From positions 1 through 64,000 of the forward strand of contig JAQUBZ010000004.1 in the NCBI GenBank assembly GCA_028686425.1: DNA of 64,000 nucleotides, given 5' to 3'. Positions 4,191 to 18,773 of this stretch are shown piece after piece. Source of the DNA: Bacteroidales bacterium (lineage in GTDB: Bacteria > Bacteroidota > Bacteroidia > Bacteroidales > UBA932). A model generated the notes under the pieces. It saw only the letters and a program-made list of their open reading frames with translations, did not search any database and was not told where the DNA came from. Position 1 is the first letter of the stretch. The number at the start of each line of letters is the position of its first letter. The position numbers were made by a program, and so were the translations under genes.

Positions 4191-5375
4191 ATGGCTTTTT
4201 TGGACAAATTTACGCGAGCAACCAATTCGCAGAATTTCATTCCGGAGATAGACGGGTTTAGATTTTTTGCGATTATTACTGTTGTTTTGATGCATCTGAA
4301 TGTCGGATTTTGCAGAACAGCCGGATTGAATTACAAAGATGGCATGATGGTCATCTGCAGCCTTTCATGGTTCTTGAACAGGGGAGGATTGGGGGTTCAG
4401 GTATTTTTTTCGATCAGTGGATTTATCCTCAGCATGCCGTTTTTGAAGTACTATCTTCAACGGAACAATACTATTCTTGGCAACCATCTTATACCCAAGC
4501 CGAAATTAGGCAGTTACTATTTGCGAAGATTGACAAGGCTTGAACCTCCGTTTATAATCGCCATAACATTCTTTTTTATTGTGCATGTCGTATTAAAGGA
4601 GGTACCGATAAAAGAGTTGACACAACACTTCATAGCCACACTTACATATTTGCACTGTATTATTTATAATGCGTGGTCAACGATAAATCCTGTCACATGG
4701 AGTCTCGAGACAGAAATACAGTTTTATCTTCTTGCTCCGTTTATTTGCAAATGGATATTCCAAAAGAGCAGGAATCCGGCATCCATAATAGCTGTTCTCT
4801 CCGTAATAACATTGTTGGGAGCATATTATTTCAAAGATACATATCATGACTTGCATCTCTCTTTTTCTCTGCTTCAGCAATTGCCGTTTTTTCTGGTAGG
4901 AATATTGGTGGCGTACATTTATCTGACTAATAAATCATTTCTTGAAAAGAAAAGTGTGCTGTTTGATGTCATTGGATTGGGTTCTATGTTCCTCCTGTTT
5001 TATTTCTCATTCGGCTACTTTATTTCCGATGTGGGATTTATTTTGTTTTTGTTTCTGCTGTTTATTTCAGTATTCAAAGGCAGATTTATGAATATGGTAT
5101 TTACGAATAAGTTAATATATGTGATAGGCGGTATGTGTTATACTATTTATTTGTTGCATTATCCTTTCTTCTATCTGATATGCAATTACACCAAGCCGCT
5201 GATTATTTTCGACAGTTATGCTTTGAATTTCTGGATTCAGGCATTTGTGATACTGCCTCTGCTGCTGGTGGTCTGCGGATTATTCTACTATTTCATTGAG
5301 AAACCATGCATGGATAAAAACTGGCCTAAGAAGTTGTGGATGAAGATTTCCGGTTCAAGGTGTAAAAACAACTGA
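4191..5375 (+). CDS. Acyltransferase-3 family membrane protein
   Basis: A 394-residue multi-pass membrane protein of the OafA/acyltransferase-3 family. It opens with the conserved IDGFRFFAIITVVLMHLNV, whose His begins the catalytic region. It also has a GVQVFFSISGFILS segment, LRRLTRLEPP and a SLETEIQFYLLAPF motif, followed by about eight hydrophobic segments. Such enzymes O-acylate sugars of capsule, O-antigen or other glycans at the inner membrane using cytoplasmic acyl donors. It is a lone gene with its own candidate promoter and a shared terminator with the convergent thioredoxin gene. No glycan cluster is adjacent, so the substrate cannot be inferred. Confidence 0.85.
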   Translation: MAFLDKFTRATNSQNFIPEIDGFRFFAIITVVLMHLNVGFCRTAGLNYKDGMMVICSLSWFLNRGGLGVQVFFSISGFILSMPFLKYYLQRNNTILGNHLIPKPKLGSYYLRRLTRLEPPFIIAITFFFIVHVVLKEVPIKELTQHFIATLTYLHCIIYNAWSTINPVTWSLETEIQFYLLAPFICKWIFQKSRNPASIIAVLSVITLLGAYYFKDTYHDLHLSFSLLQQLPFFLVGILVAYIYLTNKSFLEKKSVLFDVIGLGSMFLLFYFSFGYFISDVGFILFLFLLFISVFKGRFMNMVFTNKLIYVIGGMCYTIYLLHYPFFYLICNYTKPLIIFDSYALNFWIQAFVILPLLLVVCGLFYYFIEKPCMDKNWPKKLWMKISGSRCKNN

Positions 5376-5390
5376 TATTTTTCAATGATA

Positions 5391-5429
5391 TACAAAGAGA
5401 GGCGATCTATCTGACCGCCTCTCTTTGTA
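5391..5429. terminator. Bidirectional intrinsic terminator
   Basis: A perfect 14-bp inverted repeat (5391-5404 with 5416-5429, arm TACAAAGAGAGGCG) with an 11-base loop lies between convergent genes, with A/T-rich tails on both sides. Confidence 0.85.
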
Positions 5430-5447
5430 AGTGTGATATATGGTAAA

Positions 5448-6545
5448 TTACATTACGTCAGCTACAGCTTTTTGTAAATCTTCTCCGCGAAGGTCTCTTT
5501 TAACAATTGTTCCATCAGGACCAAACAGGATGATGTGAGGGATTCCCAAAATGCCATAAACGTTGGTAGGAGTTTTGTCATCTCCGACAAAAATCTGATT
5601 CCATTTCATACCCATCTCTTCAATGGTCTTTCTGCTGTTGGTATTGTCACCATCCCATACGGCAACACCCAACACAACAAGTCCTTTCTTCGTATATTTA
5701 TCGTAAGCGGCTTTGATGTTCGGAATTTCCCTTTTGCAAGGTCCGCACCATGATGCCCAGAAATCAACGAGTACATATTTGCCTTTTCCTACGAAATCCG
5801 AAAGATTTACATCTTTTCCATCAGGAGTTTTTCCTGAAAAATCAATAAACATGCTTCCTTCGGCTGTTTTTTCTTTTGCAACCATTGATTCTCTGACAGA
5901 TTGGAAGTTTTTATCGTTTTTGATAAAATCGGCTCCTTTATCAAGAAATTCGTCAAGATTGGCAACGCTTTCAAAGTCATAGATGAGATATTGAAGTGAT
6001 AAGTGTCCTAACGCATTGGATGTATTGGCAAAGTAAGTTGCTTTCCAATAGTTGTTTAATTGTTCCTGTGTCTTTTCATAAATTTCATTGACAGCGTTGT
6101 CTGCTTCTTCCCCTTTAAGGGTTTCATTAAATTCTTTTATTTTAGCAGACATTATTTTACGAACGGAATCCTGATATGCCAGAATTGATGAATATTTTTC
6201 ATTGAGCGGAGTTCCGGAAACTTTTGAAGGTTCATTCAGATTGATGTTGATAGTGCCTTTTTCAGGGATAAACATCGCATAATTCATGTTTCTTATTTTT
6301 GCATCGGTGGCAAGTGAAATTCTTTTGATGGTGCTGTCGCTTGCAACGCCTGTGATTTCAAATGTACCGTCAATAATTTGAATTGTGTCCTTTTCATTTG
6401 TCAACCGGTCGGTCATTATGATTACAGCTCCGGGAGTTGTTGATAATGAGTCGGTAATGGTACCTTTAACGGTATAGGTGCTCTCTTTTTGAGTGCATGA
6501 CACTGCCATCAATATGGTGGCAAGTAAAATCAGATGTTTTTTCAT
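5448..6545 (-). CDS. TlpA-like thioredoxin lipoprotein with a DUF4369 N-terminus
   Basis: A 365-residue protein from ATG 6545; the frame extends 13 codons further upstream but the signal peptide starts here. MKKHLILLATILMAVSC is a lipoprotein signal with Cys at 17. The N-terminal half resembles DUF4369, a beta-rich domain found before thioredoxin domains in Bacteroidales. Residues about 230-365 form an AhpC/TSA/TlpA thioredoxin fold with the WASWCGPCKREIP active site and a cis-proline in GILGIPHI. It likely acts as a thiol-disulfide reductase on the periplasmic side of the envelope. The upstream region shares back-to-back promoters with the trp leader. Confidence 0.9.
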   Translation of the reverse strand: MKKHLILLATILMAVSCTQKESTYTVKGTITDSLSTTPGAVIIMTDRLTNEKDTIQIIDGTFEITGVASDSTIKRISLATDAKIRNMNYAMFIPEKGTININLNEPSKVSGTPLNEKYSSILAYQDSVRKIMSAKIKEFNETLKGEEADNAVNEIYEKTQEQLNNYWKATYFANTSNALGHLSLQYLIYDFESVANLDEFLDKGADFIKNDKNFQSVRESMVAKEKTAEGSMFIDFSGKTPDGKDVNLSDFVGKGKYVLVDFWASWCGPCKREIPNIKAAYDKYTKKGLVVLGVAVWDGDNTNSRKTIEEMGMKWNQIFVGDDKTPTNVYGILGIPHIILFGPDGTIVKRDLRGEDLQKAVADVM

Positions 6546-6568
6546 TGTATAAATATTTTGTAATTTTT

Positions 6569-6600
6569 TTTGCAAATCCGACACAAAGGTAATATATTTG
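6569..6600 (+). promoter_or_regulatory. Promoter of the trp leader and trpB
   Basis: TTTG (6569-6572), 20 bases, TATATTTG (6593-6600): both boxes match the Bacteroidota consensus. The start point would be near 6607, twelve bases before the leader-peptide ATG. The -7 element lies one base from that of the divergent thioredoxin gene. Confidence 0.7.
6584..6591 (-). promoter_or_regulatory. -7 element of the thioredoxin gene promoter
   Basis: TACCTTTG on the minus strand (6591-6584) matches TAnnTTTG exactly; the -33 box is not obvious. The start point would be near 6577, leaving a leader of about 32 bases to the ATG at 6545. Confidence 0.5.
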
Positions 6601-6618
6601 TTCTCATAATTATAAGAA

Positions 6619-6678
6619 ATGAATTTTATTGCTCAAAATAATTGGTGGTGGCGTCGCTTACAACTCATAAGGTCGTAA
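6619..6678 (+). CDS. trpL: trp operon leader peptide with three consecutive Trp codons
   Basis: ATG 6619 to TAA 6676-6678 encodes MNFIAQNNWWWRRLQLIRS. The TGG-TGG-TGG run (6643-6651) lies at the base of the first hairpin, and the stop codon lies in that hairpin's distal arm. This is the geometry of classical ribosome-mediated attenuation: a ribosome stalled for lack of charged Trp-tRNA would cover the first arm, while one reaching the stop would cover the second. The gene downstream is tryptophan synthase beta, which fits. The symbol is used by analogy with trpL of other bacteria. Confidence 0.85.
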   Translation: MNFIAQNNWWWRRLQLIRS

Positions 6679-6704
6679 GGAACGCAGCGCCGTGATTTTT
6701 TTTT
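6650..6704 (+). promoter_or_regulatory. Pause hairpin (1:2) of the trp attenuator
   Basis: Starting inside the last Trp codon, GGCG...CGCTTAC (6650-6661) pairs with GTAAG...CG...GCGCC (6675-6691) with small bulges. Nine T follow at 6696-6704, so the hairpin might also terminate. A candidate antiterminator is CGTAAGG (6674-6680) with CCTTGTCG (6718-6725), about seven pairs including a bulge; this alternative is weak by eye and needs folding. Confidence 0.6.
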
Positions 6705-6705
6705 G

Positions 6706-6755
6706 AAAAGGAACAGGCCTTGTCGCACTTGCGGCAGGGCCTGTTCCTTTTTTTT
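6706..6755 (+). terminator. Attenuator terminator upstream of trpB
   Basis: A perfect 14-bp stem (AAAAGGAACAGGCC at 6706-6719 with 6738-6751) is extended inside by TGTCGCA/TGCGGCA and followed by eight T (6748-6755). It is a strong intrinsic terminator that lies after a leader peptide and before a gene in the same direction, so it regulates rather than ends the operon. Confidence 0.85.
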
Positions 6756-6803
6756 GCGCTCCATCGGATTTTAGGAAATTATAAATTGTTAAATATTGAT
6801 AAG

Positions 6804-7991
6804 ATGAAAACTTACAGAACTTTTTTGGCTGATGAAAACGGCTGCTTTGGAAATTTCGGAGGAGCTTATATCCCCGAACAATTGAAAAAATGTATTGATG
6901 AACTTCGTGAAAACTACTATGATATGATCACAGCTCCTGATTTTCGGGAAGAATATGATAACTTGTTGCAAAACTACGTTGGAAGGCCGTCTCCACTCTA
7001 TTTTGCCAATAGACTTTCAGATAAATACAAATGCAGAATCTATCTGAAAAGGGAGGATTTGAACCATACGGGAGCACACAAAATCAACAACACAATAGGA
7101 CAGGTGCTGCTGGCCGGGCGAATGGGCAAAAAACGAATTATAGCAGAAACGGGGGCCGGACAGCATGGCTTGGCTACGGCCACGGTATGTGCATTGATGG
7201 GAATGGAGTGTACTATCTATATGGGCGAAATGGATATGCAAAGGCAGCAATTAAATGTTGAAAAGATGAAAATGCTCGGTGCTCAAGTGGTACCGGTAAA
7301 GAGTGGATCAGGAACCCTGACAAATGCCGTGGATGCCGCATTGCAGGATTGGTGTTCCAATGAAAAGGATACCTTTTATATAATAGGCTCGGCAGTAGGA
7401 CCTCATCCATATCCCGATATGGTGTCATATTTTCAGTCAGTGATAAGTCGTGAAATAAAATATCAATTATTGGAGCAGGAAGGACGTGATTATCCCGATT
7501 ATCTGATAGCCTGTGTGGGGGGAGGAAGCAATGCATCAGGGACAATGTTTCACTATATTGACGAACCGAGAACCAAGATAGTGCTTGCAGAGGCTGCGGG
7601 CAAAGGTTTGCATAGCGGATATAGCGCCGCTACAGTAAATGAGGGCGTCATAGGCATTCTGCATGGATCTAAAAGTCTTGTCATGCAGGATGAAAACGGC
7701 GAATTGAAAGAGGCCTATTCTATTTCAGCAGGGCTTGATTACCCAGGGGTCGGGCCAATGATTGCCAACTTATCCATATCGGGGAAGATAGATGTTCAGG
7801 CAGTTACGGATGAAGAGGCTGTTGCCGCCGCATTTGAACTCACAAAAATGGAGGGGATTATACCTGCCTTGGAAAGTTCCCACGCTCTCGGGCTATTGCC
7901 CAAATTGAATGCTGAAACGAATGACGTAGTTGTTATTACAGTTTCCGGCAGAGGTGACAAAGATATGGTCACCTATACAAATTATTTATGA
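6804..7991 (+). CDS. trpB: Tryptophan synthase beta subunit
   Basis: 395 residues from ATG 6804; the open frame extends upstream through the terminator but translation there is unlikely. The PLP lysine lies in HTGAHKINN, with NGCFGNFGGAYIPE at the start, AETGAGQHG, and the phosphate-binding GGGSNASG. It ends with a TVSGRGDKD motif. It condenses indole and serine to tryptophan. No trpA or other trp gene follows: the next gene starts a different operon with its own promoter. It may therefore scavenge indole or pair with a TrpA encoded elsewhere. Regulation is by the attenuator at 6619-6755. Confidence 0.95.
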   Translation: MKTYRTFLADENGCFGNFGGAYIPEQLKKCIDELRENYYDMITAPDFREEYDNLLQNYVGRPSPLYFANRLSDKYKCRIYLKREDLNHTGAHKINNTIGQVLLAGRMGKKRIIAETGAGQHGLATATVCALMGMECTIYMGEMDMQRQQLNVEKMKMLGAQVVPVKSGSGTLTNAVDAALQDWCSNEKDTFYIIGSAVGPHPYPDMVSYFQSVISREIKYQLLEQEGRDYPDYLIACVGGGSNASGTMFHYIDEPRTKIVLAEAAGKGLHSGYSAATVNEGVIGILHGSKSLVMQDENGELKEAYSISAGLDYPGVGPMIANLSISGKIDVQAVTDEEAVAAAFELTKMEGIIPALESSHALGLLPKLNAETNDVVVITVSGRGDKDMVTYTNYL

Positions 7992-8016
7992 AAATCGTAA
8001 ATAGTTTGTAAATTTG
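7985..8016 (+). promoter_or_regulatory. Promoter of the sensor/ABC operon
   Basis: TTTA (7985-7988), 20 bases, TAAATTTG (8009-8016). The -7 element is exact. The start point would be near 8023, only 14 bases before the ATG at 8037, with no room for a leader structure. The -33 box overlaps the end of trpB. Confidence 0.65.
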
Positions 8017-8036
8017 TTGAAACTATTAATTGCAAT

Positions 8037-9008
8037 ATGAAAAACTTTTTTGCAAATCTTGTGTTGCTGACCATTTTATCTTGTATTCCGATGGGGGCAC
8101 AAGATAAATTGCACAAAATCACCTTCTCTCCGTCATGGATGCCGCAAGCACAATTTGCCGGTTACTACGTGGCATTGGAAAAGGGATTTTACAGAGATGC
8201 CGGTTTGGATGTAGAGATAATTATTCCTTCCAATTCCAGCCCCTCTGTTTTGAAATTAAAAACAGGTGAAGTCGATATAATCTCTACTCAGTTAGTTCAG
8301 GCAATTGCGGCTAAAGATGCGGGGACAGATCTTGTCAATATATGTCAGACAAGCCAGGTCAACGGTCTTGTGATAGTTGCTCAGCCTCAATATACTTCGC
8401 TTGAAGATTTGATCGGGAAGAGGGTTGCATCATGGAAAAGCGGATTTTCGGAACTTGCCTACTGTATGGCTAACGATAACGGGCACAATGTGGAGTGGAT
8501 TGACATACCGTCGGGAATTAATTATTTTATCAGTGGAGCGGTTGACGGTATTCTGACGATGTACTATAATGAATATTTTCAAGTTATGAATTGTGGTAAA
8601 AAAGTGACCGAACAGAATGTTTTTCACCTCTCTGAGTATGGATATAATGTCCCTGAAGATGGATTATATTGTCTTAGAAGCGCTTATTTAAATCATGAAA
8701 AGGAGATGAATGCCTTTGCACAAGCCTCGAAGCGAGGGTGGGAGTATGCACGTGAACATACGGATGAAACAATAGATATTGTGATTAAAACCATGAAGAT
8801 ACACAATATTGCAAGCAGCCCTTCTCATCAGAAGTGGATGCTTGCAAAAATACTTGAATTGCAGATTAACAAAGAGACCGGACAGGCTTCTTATACATTA
8901 GATCCCAAAACTTTCAAATTTGCAGTGGATGTTCTGAAAAAGAATAATCTGATTAAAAATGATGTCACATACGACAGTTTCGTATCACCTGAAACACGTG
9001 TAAAATGA
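8037..9008 (+). CDS. NMT1/THI5-like exported solute-binding protein
   Basis: 323 residues. The N-terminus MKNFFANLVLLTILSCIPMGAQ is an export signal; Cys16 could be lipidated or cleavage could follow GA. The body matches the NMT1/THI5/SsuA-like periplasmic binding family: ITFSPSWMPQAQFAGYYVAL with a KGFYRDAGLDVEI stretch, and VDIISTQLVQAIAAKDAG. Members bind thiamine-pyrimidine precursors, sulfonates, nitrate or bicarbonate, so the ligand is unclear here. No matching permease of that family is next door. Instead the gene overlaps by four bases (ATGA) with a Cache-domain sensor, so it may present a ligand to the sensor rather than to a transporter. That role is inference. Confidence 0.8.
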   Translation: MKNFFANLVLLTILSCIPMGAQDKLHKITFSPSWMPQAQFAGYYVALEKGFYRDAGLDVEIIIPSNSSPSVLKLKTGEVDIISTQLVQAIAAKDAGTDLVNICQTSQVNGLVIVAQPQYTSLEDLIGKRVASWKSGFSELAYCMANDNGHNVEWIDIPSGINYFISGAVDGILTMYYNEYFQVMNCGKKVTEQNVFHLSEYGYNVPEDGLYCLRSAYLNHEKEMNAFAQASKRGWEYAREHTDETIDIVIKTMKIHNIASSPSHQKWMLAKILELQINKETGQASYTLDPKTFKFAVDVLKKNNLIKNDVTYDSFVSPETRVK

Positions 9009-11338
9009 AACTATTTTATAATATAAAGCACTCATTTTCAGCACGTTTCAGTCTGTATATTCTGATACTTGTGGGAGTTGTATTTTTAGCCACTCTTTCC
9101 ATAACATATATCAACTCTTACAGAACCATTGAGAATGCGGCTCGTGAAAATGCCGAAATTACCATGGAGAAAACGACTCTTGAAATTGAGAGTTTGCTTT
9201 CAGGACTCAGCAAAACTGTGGATAATGTTGCAAGAATACTTCAAAAGGAGCCTTTTCATCCCGATTCCCTCTATTCGATAGTTAGAGAAATCGTTGAGAA
9301 CAATAGTGATGTCATTGGAAGCGCAATCGCTTTTGAACCGGACCATTTCAGGCAGAAAGGGTATTATTATTCTCCATACGCATATCGTGAAGGCGACAAG
9401 GTATCGGTCAAGCAGCTTGGCACAGTCGATTATGACTATTTTACAAAAGAATGGTATCAGATACCTAAACTGCTTGATAGAAATTATTGGACCGAACCCT
9501 ATTATGATGAAGGTGGAGGAGAAGCCGTGATGTGCACGTATTCATCTATAATGAAGGATGAAAATGGCAATTTTATGGGGGTTGTAACGGTTGATATTTC
9601 ATTGGACTGGCTTAGCAATCTTGTTCAGTCTATCAAGCCGTATCCCAATTCATATTCATTTCTTATCGGTTGCGGAGGCACTTATATCGTACATCGTCAG
9701 AAGAACAGGATATTAAATGAATCCATATTTTCAATCTCATACGAAGAGCCTGACCCGTCTATTTCTCAAAGGATAGGGCAGAAGATGGTTGATGGCGAGA
9801 CAGGAGAGGAAATAGTTATGAATGATGATTATCTTGCATATATCTTTTATGCTCCTATCGAGAATATAGGATGGTCATTAGCTATGGTGTGCCCTGCTGA
9901 TGATATTTTTGCAGAGCTGACACGGACATCAAGAACTATCGGACTCTACTCTATTGGCGGACTTTTGTTAATTTTTGTATTTTGCCTTATTGCAATCCGA
10001 AGAGTTACCTCTCCTCTGAAATCTTTTGCCGTTTCTGCAAAGAAGATTGCGCATGGAGATTTCAACGTGGCATTGCCTGTAATCAAATCTGAAGATGAGA
10101 TGATGGAGCTGCGTAATTCGTTTGACTATCTGCAGAAAGAGCTTGTAAGATATATGGATTCTCTTCAAAATACGGCTTCGGCCAAAGAGAAGATAGAGAG
10201 TGAGTTGCGAATAGCAAGGCAAATACAGCTCGGCATGATTCCTAAGACATTCCCTGCATTTCCGACCCGTACAGATATGGATATTTATGCAATATTGAAT
10301 CCGGCCAAAGAGGTCGGGGGAGATTTGTACGACTTCTATATCGATGGAGACCGCCTGCTTTTCGTCATTGGCGATGTTTCGGGAAAGGGGGTTCCTGCCT
10401 CTTTGCTGATGGCTGTTACCAGAAGTATGTTCCGTTCGGCTTCGGCTTATCTGCACAGCCCTGCAGAGATAGTTTCCGCTTTGAGCGCTGCCATAGTGGA
10501 TAGTAATGACTCCAATATGTTTGTAACATTGTTCCTTGGAATACTTAACCTTAAAACAGGCGAAATTAATTACTGCAATGCAGGACACAATCCTCCTGTG
10601 TTGTTAAGTAGCGGCAATGTCGGATTTTTCCCTGTCGAGCCTAATATCCCTCTCGGACTTTTTGAGGGATTTGAGTACAAGGAGCAAAATGGGGTTATTC
10701 CAAACGGAGCGACTTTGTTTTGCTACACTGACGGTTTGACAGAAGCCGAAAGTGAAACAAAAGAGCTGTACGGGGAAGATCGTCTGTTGAAAGTATTGGA
10801 GGATAAAGAGTTATATACCTCTAAAAATCAGATAAATGCAGTGTATGAAGATGTTCGCGCTCACGTGGGGAATGCCGATCAATCTGATGATCTTACTATG
10901 CTTTCAATCACTGTTTTTTATAAGACAATTTCTCGTAAAATAGTTATTACCAATGATTTATCGGAAATAGAAACTCTCAAATCCACGGTTGATTCATTCT
11001 GCGAAGAGGTGAAAATATCTCCGGAGCTCTCAATGCAGCTGCAGCTGGTGTTGGAAGAAGCTGTCACCAATGTGATACTATATGCCTATCCCGACAAAAA
11101 GGGAGATATTGAACTTGAATTATCTCAATGTAACGGACATTTGACGTTTGTTCTCAGTGACAGGGGCATTCCTTATAATCCGTTGGAAAAGGAGGATCCG
11201 GATGTCACTCTTGCTGCCGAAGAGCGACCAATAGGTGGTCTGGGAATATATTTTATCAAACAACTTATGGATGAAGTGGGGTACAATAGAAATGACGGGA
11301 AGAATATTTTTACAATGAAGAAAATACAAAACAATTAA
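9005..11338 (+). CDS. Membrane sensor: dCache-HAMP-PP2C phosphatase (RsbU-like) fused to a HATPase (RsbW-like)
   Basis: 777 residues. TM1 is about 17-36 and TM2 about 311-331, with a periplasmic double-Cache-like sensor between (TDWY-like WYQIPKLL, WTEPYYDEG, GVVTVDISLDWL). HAMP is about 331-385. A SpoIIE/PP2C phosphatase spans about 400-640 with metal motifs VGGDLYDFY, GDVSGKG, YTDGLTE and DQSDDLT. A GHKL kinase of the RsbW/SpoIIAB type spans about 645-775 with an intact N-box LEEAVTN (683-689), DRGIP (719-723) and GGLGIYFIKQL (744-754). The two activities would dephosphorylate and phosphorylate a STAS protein, which is encoded next. Both on one chain makes it a candidate bifunctional switch driven by an external ligand. 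Confidence 0.9.
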   Translation: MKLFYNIKHSFSARFSLYILILVGVVFLATLSITYINSYRTIENAARENAEITMEKTTLEIESLLSGLSKTVDNVARILQKEPFHPDSLYSIVREIVENNSDVIGSAIAFEPDHFRQKGYYYSPYAYREGDKVSVKQLGTVDYDYFTKEWYQIPKLLDRNYWTEPYYDEGGGEAVMCTYSSIMKDENGNFMGVVTVDISLDWLSNLVQSIKPYPNSYSFLIGCGGTYIVHRQKNRILNESIFSISYEEPDPSISQRIGQKMVDGETGEEIVMNDDYLAYIFYAPIENIGWSLAMVCPADDIFAELTRTSRTIGLYSIGGLLLIFVFCLIAIRRVTSPLKSFAVSAKKIAHGDFNVALPVIKSEDEMMELRNSFDYLQKELVRYMDSLQNTASAKEKIESELRIARQIQLGMIPKTFPAFPTRTDMDIYAILNPAKEVGGDLYDFYIDGDRLLFVIGDVSGKGVPASLLMAVTRSMFRSASAYLHSPAEIVSALSAAIVDSNDSNMFVTLFLGILNLKTGEINYCNAGHNPPVLLSSGNVGFFPVEPNIPLGLFEGFEYKEQNGVIPNGATLFCYTDGLTEAESETKELYGEDRLLKVLEDKELYTSKNQINAVYEDVRAHVGNADQSDDLTMLSITVFYKTISRKIVITNDLSEIETLKSTVDSFCEEVKISPELSMQLQLVLEEAVTNVILYAYPDKKGDIELELSQCNGHLTFVLSDRGIPYNPLEKEDPDVTLAAEERPIGGLGIYFIKQLMDEVGYNRNDGKNIFTMKKIQNN

Positions 11339-11347
11339 TTTAATATT

Positions 11348-11650
11348 ATGGAGACAATTATTGAACAACAATCAGAAAAAACAATTATCAAGATTAACGG
11401 AAGACTTGATTCGATGAATTCGGGTGATTTTGAAAAGGCCATTACGCCTGTCTTGGAGGGAGCGATGAAAGATATAACGTTGGACTGCACGGATTTTGAG
11501 TATATCAGCAGTTCAGGATTGAGATTGTTTCTGACCTTGTTGAAACATTCTAAATCAAAAGGGGGCAAGTTGTGTATAAAGGCATTGAAACCTGAAATAA
11601 AAAGTGTCTTTGACATAGCCGGATTTACTCCTCTATTTCAATTTGAATAG
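11348..11650 (+). CDS. STAS-domain anti-sigma-factor antagonist (SpoIIAA/RsbV-like)
   Basis: 100 residues, a single STAS domain. The phosphoacceptor loop reads DFEYISSSGLRLFL; by alignment with SpoIIAA the middle Ser (about residue 55) is the likely target. NGRLDSMNSGDFE near the N-terminus is also typical. It is the natural substrate for the phosphatase and kinase domains of the preceding gene. Neighbours lie 9 bases upstream and 2 bases downstream, so it is co-translated with the sensor and the permease fusion. Bacteroidota are not known to carry sigma-B, so its partner is more likely another protein, perhaps the degenerate kinase domain of the ABC ATPase at 13821. Confidence 0.9.
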   Translation: METIIEQQSEKTIIKINGRLDSMNSGDFEKAITPVLEGAMKDITLDCTDFEYISSSGLRLFLTLLKHSKSKGGKLCIKALKPEIKSVFDIAGFTPLFQFE

Positions 11651-11652
11651 TC

Positions 11653-13818
11653 ATGTTGCGGAAATTATTCCGTGCTTTTTTGACGATAGTTATCGTCCAA
11701 TCAGCTCTTGCTTGTTCAAATGACAAGAAGGACACAATTCGCTTGGAAAGCCTGAATGATATTTCCGACAAGCGAATAGCCGTTGTTATGGGGACAACAC
11801 AGGATGATTATGCGTGCAAGACTTTTCCCGATGCCGTCATATCAAGGTATGAATCAGCCTCGGACATGGCAATATCTCTGACTCAGGGGCAGGTAGATGC
11901 TTTTCTGGCAGACGGGACAGAGGCAAAAATGATTGTCGAAGAATATCCTGAACTTATAATTTTTGAAGATCGGGTCTATTCCGAACTTTTCGGTATCGGA
12001 TTTGGCGATGGCACCCTGAGAGACAAATTCAACATCTTTCTCGGCAAAATAAAAGAGAGCGGTCAACTGCAGAAAATTGTTTCAAAGTGGGAAAATAACC
12101 CGAGAGATGCCGTAATGCCCGATTTTGACTTTTCAAAAGACAATGGCTCGCTGAAAATAGGTACTAATCCCGTAATGATGCCTTTCGAGTACGTCAGGGA
12201 TGGCAGATATGTAGGACTTGACATCGAAGTAGTATCCATGTTCTGCAAAGAGATACAAATGACCCCGGAATTTTCAAATATGCCTTTCGGATCTTTGATA
12301 GCGGCATTGTCAAGTGGAAAAGTCGATCTCATTTGCAGTGGAATTACAATCACACCGGAAAGGCAGAAACAGGTAAAGTTTTCAGAACCATACTATGAAT
12401 CCAAAACAAGTATGATTACACTGAAAAAGTATGTAGATGGTTCCCGCCACAAAGTGATAGGTGTGCTGATGGGTTCTACCCAGGATTTTTTGGCGGCTGA
12501 ATTATTTCCGGATGCCCAACTCAATCGGTATGAAAATGCCGACCAGATGGTGTTGGCTCTTAAAGAAAGAGTTTGCGACCAAATAGTGATAGATGACATA
12601 AGGGGAGAAGTATTGATAGATATTTATCCCGAATTCAAATATGTATCGGATTCTCTTGCAGCCGATTCGGTGGTTGTAGTCTCCTCATTGCAAAATAGAG
12701 CTATTATTGACCGTTTTAACTTGTTTCTGGAAGAAATTGAGCAATCTGGATTGCTTGATAGTATTTCCAAACAATGGTTTGTCAATCCATCCGGAGCAGT
12801 AATGCCTCCGATACCGGATGGAAAGAACGGAATCCTTAAAATAGGGACGACAGCTGAAGATTTCCCATATTCGTTTATCCGCGATGGGAAACCTGCCGGA
12901 CTTGATGTCGATATGATGGTCAGATTTGCCGATTATATAGGTAAAAAGCCGGAATTTCAGATAAATACTTTCAGCGGTATGATTACTTCGGTACTGACAA
13001 GAAAAGTTGATATAGCGGCCAATACCATAATGCCGACAGAGGAGCGCAAGAAGCAGATGTCAATGTCGGAACCTTACCTTAAATATAATTCGGGGTTGAT
13101 GGAGTCACAAAAAAGCGCTGTTTCAGAAGGGACATTTTTTGGCAAAGTAAAGGAAAGTTTTGATAACAATATTGTCAAAGAGAGGCGTTATTTGCTTATT
13201 TTAAACGGATTGAAGGTCACTCTGATTATCTCTCTGCTGTCGATATTGTTAGGGACCATACTCGGAGGCATTATCTGTGCAATGCGCATGAGCAAAAATG
13301 CAATAGCAAGGATAACAGCTAAAGTATATATTGACATATTAAGGGGTATCCCTCAGGTAGTGTTGTTGATGCTGATGTTTTATGTGGTATTTTCTTCAGT
13401 AAATTTAAGCGGAGTGATAGTCGCTTCCATTACTTTTGCCATGAATTTTGCCGCATACGTTGCGGAAATGTTCCGTACATCTATCGAGAGTATCAGCGTG
13501 GGGCAGAAAGAGGCAGGTATTGCACTTGGTTTCAGTAAAATAAAAACATTTATTTATATCATTATGCCGCAAGCGGTCAGACGTGTTCTTCCCGTTTACA
13601 AAGGGGAGTTTATCTCACTTGTCAAAATGACTTCCATTGTAGGATATATTGCGGTACAGGATTTGACGAAGGTGGGAGACATCATCAGAAGCAGGACTTT
13701 TGATGCATTCTTCCCGCTTATTTTCATAGCCATTCTCTATTTTTTATTGGCATGGCTGCTAACGTTGTTATTGAATTTGGTTGAATTAAAAACAGTTCCC
13801 CAAAGGGGAAAAGAATAG
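11653..13818 (+). CDS. Amino-acid-type ABC permease fused to tandem solute-binding lobes
   Basis: 721 residues. A lipoprotein-like signal ends SALAC (Cys21). Then come pieces of family-3 (amino-acid) binding protein. Residues about 33-150 match only the second lobe and C-tail ([14 protein letters not shown], then [16 protein letters not shown]). Residues 165-380 are a full domain ([40 protein letters not shown]). Residues 394-485 are a first lobe only ([29 protein letters not shown]). The HisM/GlnP-type permease follows at about 510-712, with an EAA-loop [17 protein letters not shown]. It would import amino acids or similar polar solutes with the ATPase encoded next. The lobe order 2-1-2-1 is odd and may create two composite binding clefts. 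Confidence 0.85.
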
Positions 13819-13820
13819 AT

Positions 13821-14948
13821 ATGGATGCAATGATTAAAGTCGAACATCTTTCAAAGAAATTTGACGACCTTGTGGTATTGAAAGATATCAACACAACAAT
13901 ATGTAAGGGGGAGGTAATCTCTATTATCGGCCCTTCAGGTACAGGTAAAAGTACATTTTTGAGATGCCTCAATCTTCTTGAAACACCTACAGGTGGCAGA
14001 ATAGTAATTAATGGAGAGGATATTCTCTCTCCTAAAGCCGATGTCAATGCAATGAGGCAGAAAATGGGAATGGTGTTTCAGAATTTCAACTTGTTCGATC
14101 ATCTCACAATTATGGACAATCTGACCATTGGCCCTGTCAAGTTGCTGGGAGTGAAAAAAGAAGATGCCGTGGCTCGCGGAAAGGAGCTTTTGCAGATGGT
14201 GGGACTTGCGGCAAAGGCCAACTCTTTTCCGAGTGAATTGTCCGGCGGGCAGAAGCAGCGTGTTGCAATAGCAAGATGCCTGTCGATGAATCCCGAAATA
14301 ATTTTGTTTGACGAACCAACCTCAGCATTGGATCCCACCATGGTCAGCGAAGTTCTCGGGGTAATCAAACATCTGGCTCAGGAGGGAATGACAATGGCTA
14401 TTGTGACACATGAGATGAATTTTGCAAAAGATGTATCGAGCCGCATTCTATATATGGACGAGGGAATTATCTATGAGGACGGCACTCCTGATGAAATATT
14501 CAATCATCCCAAGAAAGAGAAGACAAGAGTATTTATTCATCGCATCCGTAACTGCAGATATCATATTGAGGATAAGGACTATGACTTTTATGGAATGAAC
14601 AATGTCATTACCACTTTTTGTGAAAAGCATTTCTTTTCATCCAATCAGGTACAATCCATACTCCTTCTTGTAGAGGAGAGTCTTCAGCTTTACTTTGATA
14701 AAGATAATCTGGAACAGAGAAATGCTATAATTAAAGAGGGTGGAGGAATAGAATTGTCAATAGATTATTCCGAAAAAGAGGAAGAAATCGTTATATATTT
14801 TACGGTTACCAACAATCTTCCTTCAATTCTTAAAACATCCGAATCTTCCGACGGGCTGAGCATGACGATAATTTCCGGCTTGACAAGCTCTGTAGAAGAG
14901 GATGATGTCGGTGACAAGACCCGATTTATCATGAAAGTAAAAAAATAA
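13821..14948 (+). CDS. Amino-acid ABC transporter ATPase fused to a degenerate RsbW-like domain
   Basis: 375 residues. Residues 1-240 are a GlnQ/HisP-type ATPase: Walker [10 protein letters not shown] (37-45), Q-loop Gln87, signature LSGGQ (140-144), Walker B ILFDEP (161-166), H-loop His197. Residues about 245-375 resemble the GHKL fold of anti-sigma kinases. [13 protein letters not shown] stands where RsbW has an LEEAVTN N-box, and [11 protein letters not shown] is like the G2 box, but the N-box Asn and the DxG motif are absent. The tail is probably not a working kinase; it may be a docking site for the STAS protein that gates the transporter. Only two bases separate it from the permease fusion. 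The fusion is seen directly; the gating idea is inference. Confidence 0.85.
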
Positions 14949-14954
14949 TTCAAT

Positions 14955-15671
14955 ATGCGTGTCATAATCATCGGAGGAACATCCGGCATAGGTCGCAATC
15001 TTGCCCTGAAATACTCGTCGAGGGGAGATATTGTGGGAGTGAGCGGGCGAAGAGAAGAGCTGCTGAAGTCATTGAAAGAGGAGGCTCCTAACAAAATTTT
15101 TACCAAATCTTTTGATGTTACATCAGATAATGCAGATGCCTCATTTCTATCTCTTGTGGAGATGATGGGAGGAGTGGATTTGTGCATATATTGTGCCGGG
15201 TATGGGGTAAATACAAGAGAGATCATTCCTGAAAAGGAATTGACCGCTGTTGAGATCAATGTCAAGGGATTTGTCCGGATTGTGACGACGGCATTCAATT
15301 ATTTTAAGGAAAAAGGGAGCGGGCATATAGCCACCATTTCTTCCATTGCCGCCACAAAAGGGCTTGGGATAGCGGCATGCTACTCCTCTTCCAAGAGATT
15401 TCAGGCAACATATCTTGAAGCTCTTGAACAGGTCTCCAACACGAATGGATTTCATATCAGATTTACCACCATACAGCCGGGATTCATCAGAACAGACTTT
15501 ATCCATCATGATTATCCGATGGTTATGGATCTGGAATATGCAGCAAAGAAGATATTCAAAGCCATAAACGGCTGCCGCAGATTTGTCGTCATTGACCTGA
15601 AGTGGAAGATTATAGTCTTCTTATGGAGATTGATTCCCAAATGGCTGTGGGTCAAATTGAAAATAAGGTAA
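14955..15671 (+). CDS. Short-chain dehydrogenase/reductase
   Basis: 238 residues with an SDR Rossmann start MRVIIIGGTSGIGRNLAL (TGxxxGIG-type glycine motif), a CAGYG patch matching NNAG, ATISSIAATKG, and the YSSSK catalytic Tyr/Lys pair. It uses NAD(P) to oxidise or reduce an unknown alcohol or ketone. It is the last gene of the sensor/ABC operon, six bases after the ATPase, and faces the deformylase-like gene 27 bases away. Whether it processes the imported solute is open. Confidence 0.85.
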   Translation: MRVIIIGGTSGIGRNLALKYSSRGDIVGVSGRREELLKSLKEEAPNKIFTKSFDVTSDNADASFLSLVEMMGGVDLCIYCAGYGVNTREIIPEKELTAVEINVKGFVRIVTTAFNYFKEKGSGHIATISSIAATKGLGIAACYSSSKRFQATYLEALEQVSNTNGFHIRFTTIQPGFIRTDFIHHDYPMVMDLEYAAKKIFKAINGCRRFVVIDLKWKIIVFLWRLIPKWLWVKLKIR

Positions 15672-15698
15672 ATATTTGTGGTCGAAGAAGAATATGGC

Positions 15699-16322
15699 CT
15701 ATTTATAGTCTGTGTAAAGAATACCTTTCAGGTGATCGGTCTCATGTTGGAAAATAACAGCCGTGAATCCCGATACGGTATCGCATTTCGGCTCGAAAGT
15801 GAGTTCGTCATTGTAATTGACCACAATCATGGTGGAGCGGAGTACGGTATCTCTCATGTCAGGAACAGAGAGACATCCTTCCCATCCGTATTTCTTGTCA
15901 GGCGAATAGTAGGAAATGGAGGCGTTGGGATAAAATTCAAAAGGCTCTCCCGATTTGTCAAATCTCTGAACGGCAACAAGCTGTTTGGATATTCCGACTT
16001 GCGGGGCGGCAATGCCTACTCCTGTATTCGCAGTGTCGAGTACCGTACATAACATTCTGTTTCTTAAGATATTATACTCATCTGACTGAAGATCTGTCAT
16101 GGTGAGAGGCGCGGCCTGCAGTCTCAAAAAAGAGAGTTCCGCAGTGTCCAAAGTGGTGAACAGCGGCATTATCCCTGCTGTAGAATCGCTTCCGATTCTT
16201 TCTATTTCCACCTCTGAAAATGAAACGCATTGCCTCCTGCATGATTGCGATACGGTTATCGCAATCAATGCAAGAACAAACGTAAGAGGCAGTATTTTCA
16301 GAAATGATACTTTTCTTTCCAT
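15699..16322 (-). CDS. Exported peptide deformylase-like protein
   Basis: 207 residues from ATG 16322 (alternative start 16337 would overlap the kinase gene). All three deformylase motifs are present: GVGIAAPQVG, WEGCLSVP and the metal-binding QHETDHLKG (HExxH). Ahead of the catalytic domain is a hydrophobic export segment (about 10-25) ending SQSC, a possible lipobox at Cys28, then a spacer of about 60 residues. Ordinary deformylases are cytoplasmic and lack this. It would act in the periplasm or on the membrane, perhaps on N-formyl peptides. Lipidation is uncertain because the lipobox is poor. It is the last gene of the sugar transporter/kinase operon. Confidence 0.85.
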   Translation of the reverse strand: MERKVSFLKILPLTFVLALIAITVSQSCRRQCVSFSEVEIERIGSDSTAGIMPLFTTLDTAELSFLRLQAAPLTMTDLQSDEYNILRNRMLCTVLDTANTGVGIAAPQVGISKQLVAVQRFDKSGEPFEFYPNASISYYSPDKKYGWEGCLSVPDMRDTVLRSTMIVVNYNDELTFEPKCDTVSGFTAVIFQHETDHLKGILYTDYK

Positions 16323-16330
16323 AGTGGTGA

Positions 16331-17284
16331 TTACCATGCAAGTGCACCGGCGCCGAGTATTGCGGCATCGGCTTCGTTAAGTCCTGATTTCAAGATTTGT
16401 ACTTTGTCTTTCCAGATGCCGAGCAAGTTGGCCTCCATGGCATCTTTTGTGGGTTTCATGATCAGATCTCCTGCATCTGCAAGTCCGCCGAACAGTACAA
16501 TGGCTTCCGGGGCGCTGAATGCCACAAAATCAGAGAAAGATGTGCCAAGCATCTTTCCGGTGAATTCAAAGATCTTTACGGCTATCTTGTCGCCTTTCAT
16601 TGCTGCATCAAATACATCCTTTGAGGAGATGTCAATCAGAGATCGGAGAGATGACGGTTCATCGGTCATGTCAAGCCATTCGCGTGCGGTACGGGCAACT
16701 CCGATGGCGGAAGCGTAAGTTTCAAGACAGCCGGTCTTTCCGCAGTTGCACTGACGTCCGTTGTGTCTTACTGCGCATGTGTGCCCCAATTCTCCGGCAA
16801 ATCCGTCATGTCCATAGACAAGTTCGCCATTAATCACGATTCCGCTGCCGACACCTGTTCCGAGGGTTATTTCGATGAAGTTTTTCATCCCTTTTGCTGT
16901 TCCGTAGGTCATCTCGCCTATGGCTGCCGCATTGGCATCATTGGTTACAGTGACAGGCAATCCTGTCTTTTTGTAGATATACTCTTTTAACGGAACGACT
17001 TTTCCTTTTCCCCATGGGAGATTGGCCGCATCTTCGATGGTACCGTGGTAATAGTTACCGTTCGGAGCGCCGATCCCTATCCCTTTTATGGCTTCGACAG
17101 ATACCTGGCTTGACAATTCGAGTATATTGTTGCTCAAGTCATTCATAAATTTCTCGCCATCCTGGGCACCATATATTTTGGTGTCCATCTTCTTTCTTGC
17201 AACGATATGGGCAAATCTGTCCATGATGCCTATTTTGGCCGATTGACCGCCGATGTCAACCCCTACAACATATTCTTTTTCCAT
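16331..17284 (-). CDS. ROK-family sugar kinase, probably glucokinase
   Basis: 317 residues. The ATP motif is near the N-terminus (VGVDIGGQSAKIGI), with the catalytic Asp in TVTNDANAAAIGE, the phosphate loop EITLGTGVGSGIVING, the ROK signature, a zinc site in ELGHTC followed by CNCGKTGCLETYAS, and GLNEADAAILGAGAL at the end. It phosphorylates a hexose, probably glucose, entering through the transporter encoded 19 bases upstream. The call glucokinase rests on this pairing; other hexoses are possible. Confidence 0.9.
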   Translation of the reverse strand: MEKEYVVGVDIGGQSAKIGIMDRFAHIVARKKMDTKIYGAQDGEKFMNDLSNNILELSSQVSVEAIKGIGIGAPNGNYYHGTIEDAANLPWGKGKVVPLKEYIYKKTGLPVTVTNDANAAAIGEMTYGTAKGMKNFIEITLGTGVGSGIVINGELVYGHDGFAGELGHTCAVRHNGRQCNCGKTGCLETYASAIGVARTAREWLDMTDEPSSLRSLIDISSKDVFDAAMKGDKIAVKIFEFTGKMLGTSFSDFVAFSAPEAIVLFGGLADAGDLIMKPTKDAMEANLLGIWKDKVQILKSGLNEADAAILGAGALAW

Positions 17285-17303
17285 AATATTCGATTATTTG
17301 TGA

Positions 17304-18596
17304 TTATTCGGTAACGATATCTTTGTTTACGTTTTTAGAGAATACAAGAGCATACATCATCATGAAGATGAATCCTGCAAATATCAGCCAATAGCTGTTG
17401 AGGAATCCAGCAGAGTCAGCAATTCTACCTTGAATGATAGGGAGGATACCGCCGCCACAAACCATCATCATGAATATTCCGGATGCCATCTCTGTAAATC
17501 TGCCAAGACCCGAGGTCGCAAGGTTGAAGATGCTTCCCCACATCACTGATGTGCATAATCCGCAGAGGATCAGGAACATGATTGAAGTAGGAACGTTCTG
17601 GAGTCCGAATGAGAGATTTGAATTGAATACAGGCATATTCACTGTGGCTGACGGATTGATGAACATGGCCAGCAATACGAATAAGGCACCGATTGCAGTT
17701 GTAGCCGAGAGCATAACCTTGCTTGAAACTTTTCCCCCTATAAGGCCGCCGACAAGACGTCCGATGAACATCAGGAACCAGTATGTACCGCAAAGTGTCC
17801 CTGCAATAGCTTCATCCATTTCAAGACCTCCTGCTCCAAGATCTTCGGTCATATACAGGTTGGCAATGTTAGGAATACCGACTTCTACACCGACATAAAT
17901 GAAGATTGTGATGATTCCGAATATGAAGTGACGGAATGACCATGCGCTGTGTGTCTCTTTCTGAGCACTCTTCTGAGAGGATAGTGCAAGGTGCGGTTCA
18001 GGAATCCTTGTTAATGACAATACTATGAATGCTAACGCGAAGATGCCCATTGCTATAAAGAGGGCAGGGTTTGCATCTGCAATTTGGTTTGCTTCCACAT
18101 TGGAGCCCATCAGATAACCGATAAGGACCGGAACTATGGTTGCGCCGATAGAGTTGCACGCTCCGCCGAACTGAATGAGCTGGTTGCCTTGCTTTTCATT
18201 CTTGCCGAGGCTGTTAAGCATAGGATTGACAACTGTATTGAGCATACACATTGAGAATCCCGATACGAAGGCTCCGACTAAATATACGGCAAAGCTTTCT
18301 GCAATTCCGGAAAGGAGTGTGATGCCTACTCCGACAAATCCCACGATAATGGCCCAGAGGGCTGTCTTTTTGTAACCGAGGCGTTTGAGCATGATGCCGG
18401 CAGGGATACCCATGCAGGCGTATGCGATGAAGTTGGCGAGATTACCCAGCTGTGACAGGAAGTTGCTTGCGCTGAACTGGTCTTTAACAATTACTCCAAA
18501 TGGATTTTGAAGTCCGGTAACGAATGAAATCATGAAGAACAATGCAAACATCATAGCGATCGGGAGTGCATAGTTCGATTTTTTAGTGGTAGTCAT
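17304..18596 (-). CDS. Sugar:proton MFS transporter (GluP/FucP-like)
   Basis: 430 residues with about 12 hydrophobic segments. The FucP/GluP-family features are FFMISFVTGLQNPFGVIVKDQF near the start, PAGIMLKRLGYKKTALWAI, NTVVNPMLNSLGK and GGACNSIGATIVP. It imports glucose, galactose or a related sugar by proton symport across the inner membrane. It is the first gene of an operon with the ROK kinase and the deformylase-like protein, and is divergent from the propeller lipoprotein. Confidence 0.9.
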   Translation of the reverse strand: MTTTKKSNYALPIAMMFALFFMISFVTGLQNPFGVIVKDQFSASNFLSQLGNLANFIAYACMGIPAGIMLKRLGYKKTALWAIIVGFVGVGITLLSGIAESFAVYLVGAFVSGFSMCMLNTVVNPMLNSLGKNEKQGNQLIQFGGACNSIGATIVPVLIGYLMGSNVEANQIADANPALFIAMGIFALAFIVLSLTRIPEPHLALSSQKSAQKETHSAWSFRHFIFGIITIFIYVGVEVGIPNIANLYMTEDLGAGGLEMDEAIAGTLCGTYWFLMFIGRLVGGLIGGKVSSKVMLSATTAIGALFVLLAMFINPSATVNMPVFNSNLSFGLQNVPTSIMFLILCGLCTSVMWGSIFNLATSGLGRFTEMASGIFMMMVCGGGILPIIQGRIADSAGFLNSYWLIFAGFIFMMMYALVFSKNVNKDIVTE

Positions 18597-18637
18597 AATT
18601 TATATTAAGTTTTAATTTTCAGTTTGAAAATATCTTT

Positions 18638-18645
18638 CAAATATA
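18638..18645 (-). promoter_or_regulatory. -7 element for the sugar transporter operon
   Basis: TATATTTG on the minus strand (18645-18638) matches the consensus. No clear -33 box is present. The start point would be near 18631, 35 bases before the ATG. Confidence 0.4.
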
Positions 18646-18713
18646 GACATATTTTCCCGAATAATGGTGATAAAATATATAAGGTATAAAGAAAAACAAT
18701 ATTGGAAAGATAT

Positions 18714-18745
18714 TTTGGTCTGACATAAAATAATGTATAAATTTG
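18714..18745 (+). promoter_or_regulatory. Promoter of the propeller lipoprotein
   Basis: TTTG (18714-18717), 20 bases, TAAATTTG (18738-18745); both boxes match the consensus. The start point would be near 18752, 22 bases before the ATG. Confidence 0.7.
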
Positions 18746-18773
18746 CAAAGACAATCAATTAAAAATCAACTTT

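Follow-up and report, generated by a model that had tools for sequence, protein, structure and literature searches.

The window analysed here is a 64,000-nucleotide stretch of DNA from a Bacteroidales bacterium (assembly GCA_028686425.1, contig JAQUBZ010000004.1, positions 1 to 64,000). Within it lies a set of six genes that brings together an amino-acid importer of the ATP-binding cassette (ABC) type and the components of a partner-switching system. All six open reading frames (ORFs) are on the plus strand, and the transporter ATPase has an additional C-terminal domain, here called the tail, on which the interpretation turns:

8037-9008, plus strand: NMT1/THI5-type periplasmic binding protein (SBP1; PF09084, E 4e-34), 323 amino acids, probable co-sensor
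9005-11338, plus strand: sensor, 777 amino acids, with Cache/PDC (residues 44-293), HAMP (331-381), PP2C (447-637) and RsbW-type HATPase kinase (649-773) domains
11348-11650, plus strand: STAS protein of the RsbV/SpoIIAA type (PF01740, E 3e-19), 100 amino acids, with a YISSSG loop and a predicted phospho-Ser55
11653-13818, plus strand: binding-lobe/permease fusion, 721 amino acids, with SBP_bac_3 in three stretches and BPD_transp_1
13821-14948, plus strand: GlnQ/ArtP-type ABC ATPase with a C-terminal pseudo-RsbW tail, 375 amino acids (ABC_tran, ATPase motifs, AlphaFold2 model)
14544-14945, plus strand: the tail itself, a degenerate RsbW/SpoIIAB-fold domain (residues 242-375 of the ATPase) without the N-box Asn, the G1 Asp and the ATP lid
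14955-15671, plus strand: SDR oxidoreductase (adh_short, PF00106, E 2e-29), 238 amino acids, the last gene

The first two ORFs overlap by 4 nucleotides and the following junctions are gaps of 9, 2, 2 and 6 nucleotides. A first-pass annotation, made from the sequence alone, had described a co-directional operon with short gaps or overlaps, and the coordinates together with the Pfam domains bear this out. Its Cache-HAMP-PP2C-HATPase sensor agrees with matches to PDC/Cache, HAMP, the SpoIIE-type PP2C family (PF07228, E 1e-51) and HATPase_c_2 (E 1e-24), and its STAS protein and binding-lobe/permease fusion are confirmed by the matches listed above. We think it likely that the operon specifies an ABC importer for polar amino acids and that a partner-switching relay sets its activity.

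The sensor contains both a SpoIIE-type phosphatase and an intact RsbW-type kinase, the latter (residues 649-773) retaining the N-box Asn, the G1 Asp, the ATP lid and the GG of the G2 box, and the STAS protein has a phosphorylatable Ser in a conserved loop (YISSSG, retained in most of the listed STAS relatives). The identity of the NMT1-like binding protein also held, but it is probably a co-sensor rather than an importer component, because an NMT1 gene immediately precedes that of the Cache sensor in 13/17 cases of the window type. The ATPase motifs, a matching permease and binding domains of a polar amino-acid ABC importer are all present: the ATPase core carries the usual ABC motifs and is 55-56% identical to the amino-acid importer ATPases 2olj and 4yms, and in the fusion the binding lobes precede the permease in the order B1-A1-B2-A2 (35% identity between B1 and B2, 36% between A1 and A2). 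On this order, A1-B2 could form an ordinary binding protein, and A2 and B1 a circularly permuted one. As to the substrate, no equivalog model reaches its cut-off among the matches listed.

The RsbW-fold tail of the transporter ATPase

The tail has no Pfam HATPase match at E <= 1; a profile built from 17 tails matches the HATPase of the window's own sensor at E 7e-10, and hhalign aligns the tail with three sensor-type HATPases (97.8%, E 7e-13). AlphaFold2 modelled the whole ATPase and the tail alone with predicted local distance difference test scores of 91.5 and 89.9, respectively. The eleven best matches in a fold search with the tail are anti-sigma or SiaB-type proteins (Z 11.2-13.1), led by 8ih8_C (Z 13.1, root-mean-square deviation 2.7, 120 aligned residues), which assigns the tail to the anti-sigma HATPase fold; the response regulator LvrC (Z 10.5) comes after these, and histidine kinases reach at most 7.0. 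Several of the best matches were solved together with a STAS partner (UsfX-RsfB, SpoIIAB-SpoIIAA and RsbW-RsbV). Searched against the sequences of solved structures, the tail profile gave a single chance-like match (E 0.34), and a scan of viral contigs for the tail found zero relatives.

The extent of its degeneracy was gauged by comparing 51 ATPase tails with 33 HATPases of the kinase type, a set picked from the fetched loci with a profile of intact domains and illustrating the intact state rather than its frequency. The G1 Asp and the aligned GG of the G2 box are found in 0/51 tails and in 33/33 kinase HATPases, and the N-box Asn in 4/51 and 33/33, whereas a Glu in the N-box region is kept in 45/51 and 33/33. 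The lid segment measures 3-5 residues in the tails (11 in one) and 16-17 residues in the kinase HATPases. Since the window tail lacks the Asn, the Asp and the lid, and with them the ATP-binding motifs of RsbW and SpoIIAB, it probably cannot bind ATP in the manner of a kinase. The earlier description of the tail as RsbW-like can be kept for homology and fold, on the evidence of the profiles, hhalign and the UsfX, SpoIIAB and RsbW structures, but not in the sense of a working RsbW: with a degenerate, lidless tail, the kinase activity must come from the sensor. The best reading is that the tail is a pseudo-RsbW docking site that lost its own kinase machinery.

Tail-bearing ATPases and their neighbours in other genomes

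Of 393 genomes sampled from the window's order, 16, the window's own among them, proved to carry the tail in an initial search. At 16 loci outside the window (15 genomes), the tail is always fused to a GlnQ-type ATPase adjoining a permease gene. The 17-tail profile gave matches in 61/393 genomes and added five genomes with a tail-bearing ATPase (L044-L048), bringing their number to 21; the weaker matches, which were inspected in part, include ordinary RsbW-type HATPases, among them that of the window sensor. In a tree of 118 ATPase domains, 50 tail-bearing and 68 tail-less sequences are separated without exception (support 0.998), and the two groups differ in their signatures, with GPSGTGKS in 43/50 tail-bearing and 0/68 tail-less ATPases, and ALDPTM in 42/50 of the former where all 68 of the latter have ALDPE. 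Judged by these sequences, the tail-bearing ATPases are one old subfamily, present beyond Bacteroidota. Record titles place the tail in Bacteroidia, Bacteroidales, Desulfuromonas, Treponema, Synergistaceae, Coriobacteriaceae, Oscillospiraceae, a 'Bacillus' metagenome-assembled genome (MAG) and Azonexus hydrophilus; titles of MAGs may be wrong, and the Azonexus record carries no MAG label. About 15/196 genomes of the L075 order gave a strong match to the tail; of 18 tail-ATPase matches besides that of G393 itself, 17 were fetched, and G575, a frame of 140 amino acids, was left out.

Signalling genes are contiguous with the ATPase gene and on the same strand in 10/49 tail loci outside the window and in 0/69 loci of tail-less GlnQ-type ATPases, controls that differ from the tail loci in taxonomic make-up (Fisher p 8e-5, or 0.001 with the close relatives L175-L178 counted once, the fusion of L175 being 93% identical to that of L176 and 83% to that of L177). 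In the first locus set alone, the counts are 5/32 and 0/69 (p 0.0025). The contiguous arrangements, of which L113 and L175-L178 are the most telling, read as follows:

L029: kinase HATPase, permease, tail ATPase
L033: NMT1, Cache, PP2C, HATPase, STAS, second ABC transporter, permease, tail ATPase
L047: permease, tail ATPase, sensor
L075: SDF symporter, STAS, permease-ATPase-tail fusion of 1140 amino acids
L113 (Azonexus hydrophilus): permease, tail ATPase, STAS, HATPase, NMT1, Cache-PP2C, the whole set on one strand
L175-L178: STAS, PP2C-HATPase sensor, SDF symporter, permease-ATPase-tail fusion (in L178 divided between two overlapping frames)
L180: STAS-APH protein, tail ATPase, permease

L072, which shares its contig with L038, and L082, with a weak tail match (E 4e-4), were left out of the count, L082 staying among the 51 tails of the degeneracy comparison. 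The STAS genes of L035 and L184, which lie at a greater distance, and those for PP2C/HATPase in L185, 4.5 kb off, were scored as non-contiguous, and weak SBP1-profile matches in controls L091, L108 and L144 were not scored as signalling genes. In other tail genomes the genes for NMT1, Cache-PP2C, HATPase and STAS lie elsewhere, in part or as a whole set; G122, for example, has an NMT1-sensor-STAS set ahead of a second permease fusion, apart from the tail ATPase (L052). A SpoIIE match of E 4.6e-46 or stronger, a threshold set after viewing the list, is present in 21/21 tail genomes of the order sample and in 69/372 others, and 9/9 tail genomes reached via named records have one at 4.2e-45 or better. 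A strong SpoIIE-type phosphatase is present in 30/30 tail genomes tested, a figure that covers, for the order of L075, G393 only.

The first-pass annotation also counted the SDR enzyme among the six genes. Its identity is sound, but it does not recur: with the SDR profile, the fetched tail loci gave no match at E < 1e-5 besides the window's own, and a weak one (6.5e-5, opposite strand) adjoins the set at L052. It is probably incidental to the system.

Domains related to the tail are also found on transporters of other families. At L075 and L175-L178, an SDF symporter (PF00375 in L075 and L175, profile matches in the rest) has a tail-related N-terminal domain, which matches the tails at 83% with one sequence and at 95.5% (E 2e-8) with four. 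It likewise has neither the N-box Asn nor the lid, and a comparison with the kinase HATPases gave no significant match. At L192-L194, MATE pumps (PF01554) carry a tail-related C-terminal domain (98.7%, E 3e-16) and adjoin PP2C genes, joined in L193 and L194 by HATPase and STAS genes. The MATE domains are less degenerate, lacking the N-box Asn in 3/3 but keeping the G1 Asp in L193 and a lid-length segment in L192 and L193. These three loci are the ones inspected among the MATE-sized frames from the search of the L075 order, and all three are MATE.

Further STAS proteins and tail-like sequences were noted at these loci. A second kind of ABC transporter (ABC_sub_bind and BPD_transp_2 by Pfam in L033 and L060) occurs with a protein of 389-428 amino acids that begins with a STAS domain. 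Proteins of this type are encoded at six places:

L033, 10826-12079
L057, 2272-3558
L060, 7612-8781
L063, 12651-13907
L068, 4819-6081
L069, 3297-4568

An ATPase gene is nearby in 6/6, PP2C genes are often near, and the C-terminal part has no Pfam match (L033); these proteins perhaps provide another route from partner switching to transport. STAS is fused to a TCAD9/APH-like domain in L153 (966-3056) and in L053 (2922-5159), the latter close to PP2C and HATPase genes. A 307-amino-acid frame in L158 (8690-9610; Synergistaceae MAG genome), which has no Pfam match and a C-terminal tail-like match (E 5e-6), adjoins Cache-PP2C and HATPase genes.

A proposed relay and its alternatives

The proposed model starts from what sequence and computation show directly, namely gene content, domain identities, the intact kinase motifs of the sensor, the degenerate anti-sigma-fold tail and the recurring linkage. 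A periplasmic ligand would be detected by the Cache domain, the NMT1 protein probably acting as co-sensor, and would shift the balance between the PP2C phosphatase and the HATPase kinase of the sensor. The state of the sensor would in turn set the phosphorylation of Ser55 in the STAS protein, which would dock on the pseudo-RsbW tail in one phosphorylation state only, and docking would alter ATP hydrolysis or importer assembly. The ligand, the phosphorylation, the STAS-tail binding, the on/off sign and the substrate are parts that we infer.

The idea, already present in the first-pass annotation, that partner switching is aimed at the transporter ATPase is well supported by comparison: in distant genomes these components again adjoin one another, the operon has no sigma factor, and the tail groups structurally with anti-sigma factors that bind STAS, although it is no working RsbW. 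The wiring from STAS protein to importer is, by the same comparisons, strongly suggested. The strongest argument comes from the related anti-sigma-type domains found on unrelated transporters in the company of partner-switching genes, which suggest that the tail-type domain is the receiver of the switch. Whether the RsbW-derived domain is a general STAS-docking adaptor, through which partner switching acts directly on transporters of three or more unrelated superfamilies (ABC importers, SDF symporters and MATE pumps) across several phyla, is a question on which we would put the chances at about even.

Several points weigh against a relay acting on the importer, in addition to the choice of the kinase HATPases, the make-up of the controls and the late SpoIIE threshold mentioned above. 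The tail is patchy, occurring in 2/6 sampled genomes of the window's family and, as a strong match, in 1/200 genomes of the Azonexus order (Azonexus's own), and the N-box Asn is kept in the tails of L077, L185, L188 and L191, all outside the window's order. Control L112 has a STAS gene about 6 kb off on the other strand, and several controls show weak PP2C-profile matches (E 2e-4 to 8e-16), under the cut used. With any SpoIIE match counted, the comparison becomes 21/21 versus 271/372 genomes (p 0.002). The cognate pair is ambiguous, as two or more STAS proteins or phosphatases are encoded in several tail genomes, and the second STAS protein of the window's own genome is fused to a TCAD9 domain. 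Finally, the gene order, which the first-pass annotation had proposed to look for in other Bacteroidales, is not widely conserved: 39/49 tail loci have no contiguous signalling gene, some of them being short contigs that hide neighbours.

This last count also favours a different explanation, in which the tail works as an independent domain for regulation or dimerisation, sensing a small molecule or stabilising the ATPase dimer, with the signalling genes acting elsewhere. Importer ATPases commonly bear C-terminal regulatory domains, as in MetN and MalK, and both turn up when the whole ATPase is searched by fold. The tail itself, however, resembles STAS-binding anti-sigma factors in fold, two unrelated transporters bear tail-like domains within a single operon that also has STAS and kinase/phosphatase genes (L175-L178), and every tail genome tested has a strong SpoIIE-type phosphatase. 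We regard this explanation as unlikely.

Lower still is the chance that the relay drives transcription or another output, such as a sigma factor or the STAS-TCAD9 protein, with the importer merely co-expressed; this we hold to be quite improbable. Sigma factors are the classical target of partner switching, and the genome has, besides the STAS-TCAD9 protein, two proteins with sigma-70 region 3 over cut-off, on other contigs, one of them RpoD-like (below curated cut-offs). Yet the six genes include neither a sigma factor nor a free anti-sigma factor, no cognate sigma factor was found among them or the two neighbours scanned, and the anti-sigma-fold tail on the ATPase would be left unexplained. 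Over Pfam cut-offs, the genome holds two STAS, two HATPase_c_2 and two SpoIIE matches; it is 92% complete, so absences are provisional. Its only HATPase_c_2 proteins over cut-off are the sensor and one adjoining [FeFe]-hydrogenase-like and NuoF-like genes, and the second, weaker SpoIIE match adjoins an [FeFe]-hydrogenase-like gene (models matched below curated cut-offs in each case). Both of these second proteins were judged, from their hydrogenase-like neighbourhoods, to be unrelated to the operon. Identity as a sigma-B system was rejected, the operon having no sigma factor.

That the tail is an active RsbW-like kinase, phosphorylating the STAS protein and coupling transport state to signalling in the reverse direction, is barely credible and was rejected on its motifs: the N-box-region Glu is widely kept, but the G1 Asp is absent from all 51 tails, the lid is missing, the N-box Asn is absent from 47/51, and the window sensor already has an intact kinase domain.

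Upstream context and known systems

The operon begins 45 nucleotides after a gene for TrpB, and the features ahead of it are:

6807-7991, plus strand: trpB (TIGR00263, 561 bits against a cut-off of 392), directly upstream of the operon
8009-8016, plus strand: TAAATTTG, match to the Bacteroidota -7 box, 20 nucleotides ahead of the first ATG

The first-pass annotation had placed the operon behind one good promoter. TAAATTTG fits the -7 consensus TAnnTTTG of Bacteroidota and is a candidate promoter box, but a sigma-70 scan found no site within the 45-nucleotide gap, and with no terminator-like site between the trpB stop (7991) and the operon start (8037), read-through from trpB is possible. A single promoter is plausible, not proven. 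Rfam gave nothing at gathering threshold in 5000-18800.

Ahead of trpB (ATG at 6807), in the region 6619-6755, is a small ORF, MNFIAQNNWWWRRLQLIRS, with three consecutive Trp codons, followed by a hairpin with 22-nucleotide arms (6706-6751; fold z -6.6) and a T run. Together these likely constitute a trp attenuator, although no Rfam family matches the candidate at gathering threshold. No Trp_syntA match, and with it no trpA, was detected in the genome (92% complete); on this basis indole salvage and a need for tryptophan are possible in the source organism, and the importer operon, some 45-46 nucleotides downstream of trpB, might, as a guess, serve an aromatic amino acid.

Among known systems, the importer shares its ATPase core with GlnQ, ArtP and GlnPQ and the fusion of binding domains to the permease with GlnP. 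It differs from these in its pseudo-RsbW tail, its GPSGTGKS and ALDPTM signatures and the B-A-B-A lobes before the permease.

MlaFEDB already offers a case in which a STAS protein acts on an ABC ATPase: MlaB binds the ATPase MlaF and is needed for it, contacting the ATPase core and its C-terminal extension. A phosphomimetic at the STAS Thr of MlaB weakened binding, and phosphorylation of MlaB is raised as an open possibility (PMC7367683). As described there, MlaFEDB belongs to another transporter family, features no RsbW-like docking domain, and has MlaB phosphorylation as a possibility only. The window operon is not itself an Mla system, as its permease is of the BPD_transp_1 type and mlaB_1 scores 17.7 bits against a cut-off of 90. 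It bears on the question raised for MlaFB, whether phosphorylation controls those STAS proteins whose target is an ABC ATPase, and makes it directly testable, since kinase, phosphatase, STAS protein and ATPase share one operon.

If transporters are gated directly in this way, transport could be controlled in a fast, reversible and ligand-driven manner without transcription. That the domain recurs on transporters of the SDF and MATE kinds points to a reusable adaptor, missed or barely detected by Pfam; if the adaptor reading is true, a widespread phospho-switch would serve transport instead of transcription.

Partner switching is known chiefly for freeing sigma factors. SypE/SypA, SiaABCD and BtrUVW reportedly have outputs beyond a sigma factor and share with the window operon a kinase and a phosphatase that set STAS phosphorylation, the output of which need not be sigma; to our knowledge, none of them acts on a transporter via an RsbW-like tail. 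Searches of open-access papers (subscription journals and bioRxiv lay outside them) turned up no report of partner switching aimed at transporters by such a tail. The operon is probably a variant of partner switching in which the pseudo-RsbW tail would serve as the transporter's receiver. With the Rsb and SpoIIA systems (RsbU-RsbV-RsbW and SpoIIE-SpoIIAA-SpoIIAB), it has in common the PP2C phosphatase, the HATPase kinase and the STAS Ser, and the tail shares the fold of RsbW and SpoIIAB; in contrast to those systems, it contains no sigma factor, and its RsbW-like output partner, itself degenerate, forms part of a transporter ATPase.

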